NCBI RefSeq assembly: GCF_030929605.1
Contig: NZ_JAVFVS010000011.1
Span: 1 to 64,000, forward strand
Direction: 5' to 3'
DNA length: 64,000 nt
DNA from: Flavobacterium sp. LHD-80
GTDB lineage: Bacteria > Bacteroidota > Bacteroidia > Flavobacteriales > Flavobacteriaceae
Below, piece by piece: positions 26,398-26,886 of the stretch. A program made the translations under genes and the position numbers. The notes beneath the pieces were generated by a model, which had not been told where the DNA came from, did not search any database, and worked only from the letters and a program-made list of their open reading frames with translations. Numbering within the stretch: the stretch's first letter is position 1; each line of letters begins with the position of its first letter.

Positions 26398-26430
26398 AAA
26401 AAAAACTCCTTAATTTCTTAAGGAGTTTTT
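26398..26430. terminator. CTCCTTAA-type terminator hairpin (copy 4)
   Basis: ACTCCTTAA / TTAAGGAGT around TTTC, the mirror orientation of the other copies. It stands between the broken tRNA and tRNA-Tyr. Confidence 0.7.
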
Positions 26431-26432
26431 GG

Positions 26433-26506
26433 TGGGCGATGAGGGGTTCGAACCCCCGACCACTTCCGATTGAAAATCGGAATGCTCTGAACCAGCTGAG
26501 CTAATC
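26433..26506 (-). pseudogene. Broken tRNA (Val-like body, damaged acceptor and anticodon arm)
   Basis: On the minus strand the D-arm segment (24 nt from GATTAGCTCAGC) and the T-arm plus 3' acceptor strand (about 30 nt, ending ATCGCCCAC) are identical to tRNA-Val at 26812-26886. The 5' acceptor strand is gone: where GGGCGAT is needed, AAAAGAT is found, leaving three pairs. The anticodon arm also differs (TTCCG/CGGAA around a 9-nt loop, or a 7-nt loop TTTTCAA with UUC in the middle), and the variable region is longer. It should not fold or be processed as a normal tRNA. The GIY-YIG gene runs into its 5' end and uses its GAT-TAG as last codon and stop. Confidence 0.8.
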
Positions 26507-26752
26507 TTTTTTTCTAATTAATTCTTGGATTTTAATTCTGCTTTTCCAAGACTTGATCTGTAATTCTCTTTTGTGTGCAATTTCTTTTGTTACGTAGTTT
26601 TCAATATAAGCAACTTTCCAATCACTTACATTTCCTGTAAAACCTTTGCTTTTTTGATTGTGGCGAGCCAGTCTTTTTTCTAAATTAGAAGTAAATCCAA
26701 TGTAGAATTTGTTCTTGCTTTCGCTAAATAAAATATAAACTATAAAATTCAT
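26501..26752 (-). CDS. Small GIY-YIG nuclease-domain protein fused into a tRNA copy
   Basis: An 83-residue single-domain GIY-YIG protein when started at the ATG at 26752. An ATG 33 nt earlier lies inside the hairpin that follows tRNA-Val and adds residues without homology. Motifs: FIVYILFSESKNKFYIGFTS (the GIY and YIG strands), catalytic Arg in EKRLARHN, AYIENY, and the metal-binding Glu candidate in HKRELQIK. The family includes UvrC-type and homing nucleases. The last codon (GAT, Asp) and stop (TAG) belong to the adjacent tRNA copy. Similar short GIY-YIG proteins, often labelled excinuclease ABC C subunit domain, are numerous in flavobacteria as far as I recall. Position between an intact tRNA-Val and a broken copy suggests a tRNA-targeting mobile gene. 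Confidence 0.8.
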   Translation of the reverse strand: MNFIVYILFSESKNKFYIGFTSNLEKRLARHNQKSKGFTGNVSDWKVAYIENYVTKEIAHKRELQIKSWKSRIKIQELIRKKD

Positions 26753-26767
26753 AAAAGTATATAAAGC

Positions 26768-26803
26768 AAAAAACTCCAAAATCATAAGACTTTGGAGTTT
26801 TTG
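26768..26803. terminator. Terminator hairpin after tRNA-Val
   Basis: AAAACTCCAAA / TTTGGAGTTTT with a 10-base loop and T-runs on either side, 9 nt downstream (minus strand) of tRNA-Val. It should separate tRNA-Val from the GIY-YIG gene. Confidence 0.75.
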
Positions 26804-26811
26804 GAATTTTG

Positions 26812-26886
26812 TGGGCGATGAGGGGTTCGAACCCCCGACCCCCTCGGTGTAAACGAGGTGCTCTGAACCAGCTGAGCTAATCGCCC
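26812..26886 (-). tRNA. tRNA-Val(TAC)
   Basis: Complete cloverleaf of 75 nt: acceptor GGGCGAT / ATCGCCC, D-arm GCTCAGCTGGTTCAGAGC, anticodon stem CCTCG/CGAGG with loop TTTACAC (anticodon TAC), T-arm GGGGGTTCGAACCCC. A matched promoter lies just upstream at 26924-26953. Confidence 0.95.

Follow-up and report, generated by a model that had tools for sequence, protein, structure and literature searches.

The window, the 64-kb stretch of Flavobacterium sp. LHD-80 DNA analysed here, carries on its minus strand, in this order, an intact tRNA-Val gene, a terminator-like hairpin, a small GIY-YIG ORF, a damaged tRNA-Val copy, a terminator, and tRNA-Tyr. The features are as follows:

26811..26886 (-): intact tRNA-Val(TAC), called by ARAGORN and Rfam (66.6 bits), encoded CCA absent
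26772..26799 (-): terminator-like hairpin between tRNA-Val and the ORF, identified by eye
26501..26785 (-): GIY-YIG nuclease ORF (Pfam GIY-YIG, E=1e-15), 94 aa from the first ATG
26430..26506 (-): damaged tRNA-Val copy, spanning tRNA position 5 through the 3' end, followed by CCA
26464..26482 (-): hairpin TTCCGATTTTCAATCGGAA, with a perfect 8-bp stem, in place of the damaged copy's anticodon arm
26400..26429 (-): putative native tRNA-Val terminator behind the damaged copy, from comparison with loci L346, L347, and L117

The likelier start of the ORF is the ATG at 26752, which gives a protein of 83 aa and is the common start among many relatives. Its last codon and stop (GAT TAG) are made of tRNA bases, TAG being tRNA bases 8-10. 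The damaged copy keeps the D-arm, the T-arm, and the 3' acceptor, and its 5' acceptor strand is gone. Rfam matches it at 26438-26506 (-) with 37.9 bits over model positions 5-66; by eye, it extends to 26433, and to 26430 including CCA. The initial annotation had described a second tRNA-Val copy beside the intact one, identical D-arms and T-arm/3' acceptors in the two copies, a GIY-YIG gene ending in tRNA bases, and the placement of this gene between the working tRNA and its damaged copy. All of this stands: ARAGORN and the two Rfam matches recover the copies, alignment confirms the identical arms, and the Pfam match and the GAT TAG end are as described. It was also right on the loss of the 5' acceptor strand, but missed the replaced anticodon arm. 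The two tRNA 3' ends (discriminator bases) lie 379 bp apart, and the GIY-YIG ORF is the sole ORF of at least 40 aa between the two copies. A tRNA-site integrative element was rejected because this interval holds no recombinase ORF, and a group I intron around the ORF because no intron family reaches the Rfam gathering score in the window and the neighbouring tRNA is complete.

The source genome (4.96 Mb, 27 contigs) contains six matches to the ORF at E<=0.01, itself included. It also holds 50 tRNA matches of at least 43 bits and four weaker ones (150 of 449 first-look candidates scored). All four weaker matches lie near three of the six ORF matches, so the damaged copy is not a chance product. 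Elsewhere in this genome (L003, C8:209924-210080), two damaged tRNA-Ala copies, each with a full 5' end and a hairpin for the anticodon arm, are located upstream of an intact tRNA-Ala, a GIY-YIG gene, and a third fragment, with Flavo-1 RNA nearby. Two further small GIY-YIG genes, L005 (C8:323894) and L006 (C11:226495), have no tRNA linkage; by eye, their flanks display palindromic repeats of other kinds (gtcattccgaggaacgaggaatc; gtcaggctgagcggagtcgaagccc).

Linkage was assessed on 184 arrays (268 ORF units) in 181 loci, drawn from the genus and from part of the family and phylum matches, with one genome per species. It was defined by an intact same-strand tRNA at most 300 bp upstream or 60 bp downstream of the array. 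Damaged copies were accepted from a score of 32, the maximum of 60 shuffled 3' regions being 28.75. The genus set comprises all places at E<=1e-12 plus L004, L005, and L006 from the own-genome search. The family and phylum lists are longer; from these, the tool-given loci plus 40 and 20 chosen stretches were taken, a choice made before viewing the tRNA neighbourhood and favouring tandem arrays and good scores. The phylum sample includes genomes from the window's own genus and family. Loci L002, L049, L054, L063, L066, L145, L171, L215, L216, L235, and L242 were left out as duplicates, and L217 is also absent from the linkage counts. Damaged copies called Lys or Glu by ARAGORN were taken out of the tRNA library before counting. 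Such labels, tRNA-Lys(ttt) or tRNA-Glu(ttc), are found at L046, L067, L068, L080, and L285, and constitute an annotation hazard.

In this sample, 178 of the 184 arrays adjoin an intact same-strand tRNA and/or a tRNA fragment. An intact tRNA is present in 151, of which 133 also possess a damaged copy of the same amino acid, 17 have none above threshold, and one (L206) has a copy of another isotype: it is classed as Ser(gct), its fragments match tRNA-Pro, and a contig ends there. Another 27 arrays have a damaged copy in range and no intact tRNA, and six have neither feature. Among these six, L005 and L006 are the distant members added from the own-genome search, and L104, L168, and L209 are at contig ends. 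The last, L102, passed E<=1e-12 and is a true exception; it is closer to L005 (48% identity, E=4e-31) than to L050 (46%, E=7e-20). Arrays with an intact tRNA, a copy only, or neither number 56, 11, and 4 in the genus set (71 arrays), 55, 12, and 2 in the family set (69), and 40, 4, and 0 in the phylum set (44). By an estimate assuming ~55 tRNA genes in a 5-Mb genome, ~0.2% of genes would be so placed by chance. As a control, 20 genes of the same fold and genus, of the L006 subtype, were inspected: none is tRNA-linked (0/20), and no tRNA occurs in any flank examined. The expectation that small GIY-YIG relatives are tied to tRNA genes beyond chance is thus borne out (178/184 versus 0/20). The idea that such a mobile unit accounts for the numerous small GIY-YIG genes of flavobacteria fails for at least one subfamily, the L006 type.

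The presence of the gene is patchy: 50 of 121 genus genomes harbor a homologue at E<=1e-12, and none was found at this cut-off in the other 71. Close named relatives are found in Flavobacterium. A named set, overlapping the others and kept outside the 184, comprises 77 arrays in 79 loci, with an intact tRNA in 54 (48 with a same-isotype copy), a copy only in 16, and neither in seven. The latter are six distant homologues whose records bear the names of other phyla (L327, L328, L332, L334, L338, and L339) and one short piece in L280. Among the distant loci, L331, L333, L335, and L336, and by eye also L327, lie near tRNA genes or pieces, some with hairpins; the records of L327, L331, L333, L335, and L336 are named Brocadiaceae, Moraniibacteriota, Parcubacteria, Levyibacteriota, and Omnitrophota. 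The proximity of distant loci to tRNA hints at a possible spread beyond Bacteroidota.

The arrays with an intact tRNA display two layouts. In layout A (125/151), that of the window, the tRNA is followed by the ORF and the damaged copy. In layout B (26/151), the order is mirrored: damaged copy, ORF, tRNA, with the ORF ending at, or a few bases from, the first tRNA base in the loci read. An ORF at the 5' end of the working tRNA is thus a trait of layout B only. The layout B copy starts at or near tRNA base 1. For tRNA-Arg(tcg), Ser, and Ala, it stops close to the anticodon loop; it is longer for others, the longest being that of tRNA-Pro(tgg) (up to base 73). Twelve amino acids are represented among the intact partner tRNAs: Val, Ala, Asn, Pro, Arg, Met, Asp, Phe, His, Ser, Lys, and Gly. 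In the two His arrays, no damaged copy is seen. At least two ORFs are found in 51 of the 184 arrays, with a maximum of eight. Successive units are 290-440 bp apart in 76 of 84 steps (median 365, range 255-576), and in some arrays this distance is identical throughout.

Among alignable units, the longest perfect stem is greater in the damaged copy than in the intact tRNA in 94/140 cases for layout A and 34/41 for layout B. In layout A, most Val, Arg(tct), and Pro(tgg) copies, and many Ala copies, have this hairpin at the anticodon arm; Met copies have it immediately 3' of that arm, and Asp, Phe, and many Asn copies in the T-arm or close to it. In layout B, many copies have it in the D-arm or close to it, and those of Pro(tgg) close to the T-arm. 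The damaged tRNA-Val of L051 harbors a second hairpin inserted in its T-arm. Of 37 distinct tRNA-Val arms, 33 fit the searched core CCGA...TCGG; moving outward, the adjacent pair is TA in 19 and CG in 14, a change on both sides, and the pair beyond it is TA in 32 and TG in one. The stem is thus conserved and the loop variable. Since the hairpin follows the ORF in layout A and precedes it in layout B, a simple role at the mRNA end is unlikely; it may mark the displaced copy against re-cutting or misfolding as a tRNA. A conserved hairpin is not known as a feature of homing genes.

The comparison of empty with filled sites concerned tRNA-Val in layout A. Many genomes of the genus share the folC-tRNA-Val neighbourhood, whose syntenic alignment sets two empty sites (L346 and L347) against four filled ones (L001, which is the window, L050, L051, and L052). 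L346 and L050 share 97% identity over the 120 nt upstream of tRNA-Val. The empty sites have no ORF; their tRNA-Val ends in CCA, directly followed by the terminator ccaagaaactccttaagaaattaaggagtttttt. At L051 and L052, CCA and ccaagaaactccttaagaaattaaggagtttttt sit after the damaged copy, and a near-identical sequence does so in the window: the counterpart of 26400..26429 directly follows tRNA-Val at L346 and L347, and also at L117. The working tRNAs of L001 and L052 lack CCA and run into another hairpin. CCA is on both copies at L051, and a different sequence lies behind the damaged copy at L050. The hairpin type of 26772..26799 is found at the equivalent place in many filled relatives, and the terminator following tRNA-Val at L346 and L347 differs from it.

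As CCA and a terminator close to that of the empty sites stand behind the damaged copy and the 3' end of the working tRNA differs, the element probably entered the tRNA-Val gene, gave it a new 3' end, and displaced the native one. A gene end supplied by the element and a displaced native end are indicated for L001 and L052 by comparison with L346 and L347. In the window, the tRNA-Val at 26811..26886 would then be a hybrid of a native 5' part and an element-derived 3' end, the hairpin at 26772..26799 would belong to the element, and the 3' part and CCA of the copy at 26430..26506 would be the displaced native end. The initial annotation had the unit entering at the 5' end of tRNA genes; the comparison with empty sites does not support this, and indicates that the native 3' end and terminator moved, so that the element of the window lies within or at the 3' part of the gene.

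The exchange is visible in part of the tRNA-Val sites. Among 37 distinct filled sites of the genus and named sets with both ends readable, CCA is found on the damaged copy only in 11, on the working tRNA only in two, on both in six, and on neither copy in 18; another 18 rows yielded no 3' end for the damaged copy. CCA is encoded by four of the 35 tRNA-Val genes of the comparison loci, two of them L346 and L347, and thus marks an exchange only where the native gene had it. At L060, L062, L064, and L300, both copies are followed by a near-identical terminator, which is equally compatible with local duplication. The tRNA body is too conserved to tell the donor of the supplied end, and L064 carries the same host-type variant in both copies. 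A broken tRNA in strains devoid of the gene, which would speak against a link between the two, was not encountered: among 30 tRNA-Val genes without a GIY-YIG gene downstream, a damaged copy within 450 nt is found in 0 of the 27 readable ones, versus four of five with the gene.

The catalytic residues of GIY-YIG nucleases are two tyrosines, an arginine, and a glutamate. In the present family, Tyr6, Tyr17, Gly19, Arg27, His31, and Glu63 show no variation among 16 diverse members or in 33 rows, and the domain match together with invariant Y6, Y17, R27, and E63 assigns the protein to the GIY-YIG superfamily (UPF0213/Slx1-like). The predicted fold is a lone GIY-YIG domain of 83 residues (mean pLDDT 88.3), further domains being absent from the model. 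Profile comparison returns 1zg2 (UPF0213, E=1.4e-12) and also SLX1 chains; the best Foldseek match is 1zg2 (E=4.2e-4), followed weakly by Slx1 chains (E 0.018 and worse). SegB and I-TevI possess a part beyond the GIY-YIG domain. Membership in the SegB family was rejected on account of the 83-residue single domain and because a search of 50,697 phage records with L050, a window-type protein, gave no match at E<=1e-3; phage cargo was rejected on the latter ground. Plasmid cargo was discarded as well: 11 records of the plasmid collection match only distantly (<60% identity), and these are predicted non-mobilizable and come from six genera, none of them Flavobacterium.

Most genus-listed ORFs are intact (72/82), and 10/82 are broken. 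The median dN/dS of 0.10 (157 usable of 250 pairs tried), obtained at a median dS of 0.88 that is near saturation in many pairs, indicates strong purifying selection, which would be compatible with a host function too. A 220-member tree shows 33 changes of tRNA amino acid, versus at least 139 in 200 shuffles, and 12 changes of layout (n=180), versus at least 27, although these shuffles ignore common descent and tandem copies and hence overstate the signal. Nuclease lineages are thus tied to tRNA identity with occasional retargeting, a correlate of specificity.

Sequence comparison shows linkage with tRNA genes, lineages tied to isotypes, empty sites, an exchange of 3' ends at some tRNA-Val sites, a conserved active site, and purifying selection. 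We consider it fairly probable that the gene is a minimal, free-standing mobile gene of the homing type, specialised on tRNA genes. Two traits of homing genes are present: occupied and empty versions of one site (for tRNA-Val), and a lineage-specific target, as a correlate. The arrangement like a homing gene put forward in the initial annotation hence remains the best model, without the entry at the 5' end. The unit, ~380 bp here, would consist of a tRNA 3' part with its own terminator, the single-domain GIY-YIG ORF, and a tRNA fragment with one hairpin arm swapped for a longer palindromic hairpin. The nuclease would break the element-free tRNA gene within the tRNA sequence, and repair from the element-bearing copy would follow, with the two tRNA stretches as homology arms. 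The outcome would be a working hybrid tRNA, one side native and the other element-supplied, together with the nuclease gene and the displaced, damaged native copy. Layout A would restore the 3' part of the tRNA and layout B the 5' part. Cutting of the element-free gene, homing repair, and current mobility are what this model would add to the comparisons. As the working tRNA would remain a target, copies could accumulate in tandem; for the same reason, self-cutting would have to be tolerated or prevented, which counts against homing. So do the 18 of 37 filled sites with CCA on neither copy, CCA being a weak marker, the terminators alike on both copies at some loci, the 17 of 151 arrays without a damaged copy and the one with a copy of another isotype, the exception L102, the conserved hairpin, and the bare catalytic domain, which has no extra domain in the predicted structure.

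It is unlikely that the gene instead fulfils a host function, in which the GIY-YIG protein and a tRNA-like hairpin transcript would serve the cell, in tRNA dosage, processing, or quality control or as a toxin-decoy pair, and linkage would reflect co-expression from the tRNA promoter. The low dN/dS and the stem conserved with one two-sided change would suit such a function, as would the fusion of an Slx1-cluster GIY-YIG nuclease with a TrmH-like tRNA methyltransferase, from which the authors of a superfamily survey suggested a role in RNA metabolism (PMC1564403). Against it stand the lack of the gene, at the cut-off used, in 71 of 121 genus genomes, the targeting of tRNAs for 12 amino acids, the freedom of the ORF to precede or follow the tRNA, the 10 broken ORFs among 82, and the clean empty site in relatives.

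Tandem arrays, some evenly spaced throughout, and near-matching terminators on both sides at some loci would also be expected if tRNA genes duplicated by unequal recombination and the GIY-YIG ORF rode along without being the cause. We find this quite improbable, given that the control subfamily of the L006 type is at tRNA genes in 0/20 cases, that damaged tRNA-Val without the ORF is found in 0/27, and that lineages are tied to isotypes.

A palindrome resembling the hairpin, CCCGATAGCTATCGGG, is dispersed in the source genome (40 copies) and also occurs in related genomes. In several of 20 stretches from the source genome (L348-L367), it is seen by eye to cap another short inverted repeat, as though hairpin tips were its insertion sites. 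CCCGATAGCTATCGGG occurs in genomes with no GIY-YIG gene at the cut-off (G006, G009, and G109, with 40, 26, and 67 copies), and the gene occurs in genomes with 0 copies of it (G007, G010, and G013). Among the dispersed copies that were read, none adjoins tRNA sequence (best score 30.0 against a threshold of 32). RAYTs are Y1 HUH transposases that are linked to dispersed palindromes and move REPs; a REP/RAYT system was rejected, the enzyme being here a GIY-YIG protein, and the GIY-YIG protein was rated low as a mover of the dispersed palindromes, which occur independently of the gene. That the enzyme acts mainly on palindromic hairpins through Slx1-like structure-specific cutting and moves them, tRNA arms being hairpin-forming, would agree with its nearest solved structures (UPF0213, weakly Slx1), with the hairpin at one of the tRNA's own arms in most units, and with CCCGATAGCTATCGGG at inverted-repeat tips, but is very unlikely in view of this independence and of the lack of tRNA sequence beside the copies read.

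A bolder form of the homing reading, which we hold as possible rather than probable, is that of phylum-wide autonomous elements of ~300-440 bp living only in tRNA genes, with isotype-matched nucleases and two mirror-image ways of rebuilding the tRNA. The bare GIY-YIG domain would cut a tRNA arm, and the hairpin would be the element's own mark against re-cutting and misfolding; perhaps the domain recognises hairpin or branched DNA, by analogy with Slx1. If true, essential tRNA genes in many Bacteroidota would house one of the smallest self-spreading genes, and some of their working tRNAs would be hybrids with an end supplied, and thus in part encoded, by the element. How a bare domain of 83 residues finds one tRNA gene among ~50, and how a selfish gene persists in a target that the cell cannot do without, would become testable questions, as would the share of such elements in the large number of small GIY-YIG genes of these bacteria.

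Several known systems share traits with the tRNA-linked family. Integrative elements of tRNA sites attach at tRNA 3' ends, restore the 3' end, and leave a partial tRNA copy at their far end. Here, in contrast, the unit is ~380 bp long with one nuclease ORF and no recombinase ORF, and an arm of the far copy is replaced. The UPF0213/Slx1 group shares fold and sequence with the tRNA-linked proteins (1zg2, SLX1 chains); no association with tRNA genes was met in the main text of the superfamily survey (PMC1564403), and among the matches listed from openly licensed papers, no description of a tRNA-linked GIY-YIG family was found. SegB of T-even phages is a free-standing GIY-YIG nuclease encoded beside tRNA genes, within which it cuts, and drives the tandem amplification of a tRNA plus segB unit via microhomology shared by the 5' end of the tRNA and the 3' end of segB (PMC13096335). 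It is, however, a phage gene, and a damaged tRNA copy of the present kind is not part of that description (PMC13096335). The mobile ORFs of fungal mitochondria (atp6, atp9, cox2, and nad3 of Glomus, atp6 of Allomyces) make hybrid genes: a nuclease gene, GIY-YIG in one case, enters an essential gene and supplies a substitute 3' end, the original one being left downstream as a displaced duplicate (PMC3630166). Unlike these, the tRNA-linked family is found in bacterial genomes and in tRNA genes, and displays a bare 83-aa domain, a hairpin in the displaced copy, and a mirror layout; it is by host, target, size, hairpin, and mirror layout that it differs from these mobile ORFs and SegB, its nearest precedents in print.
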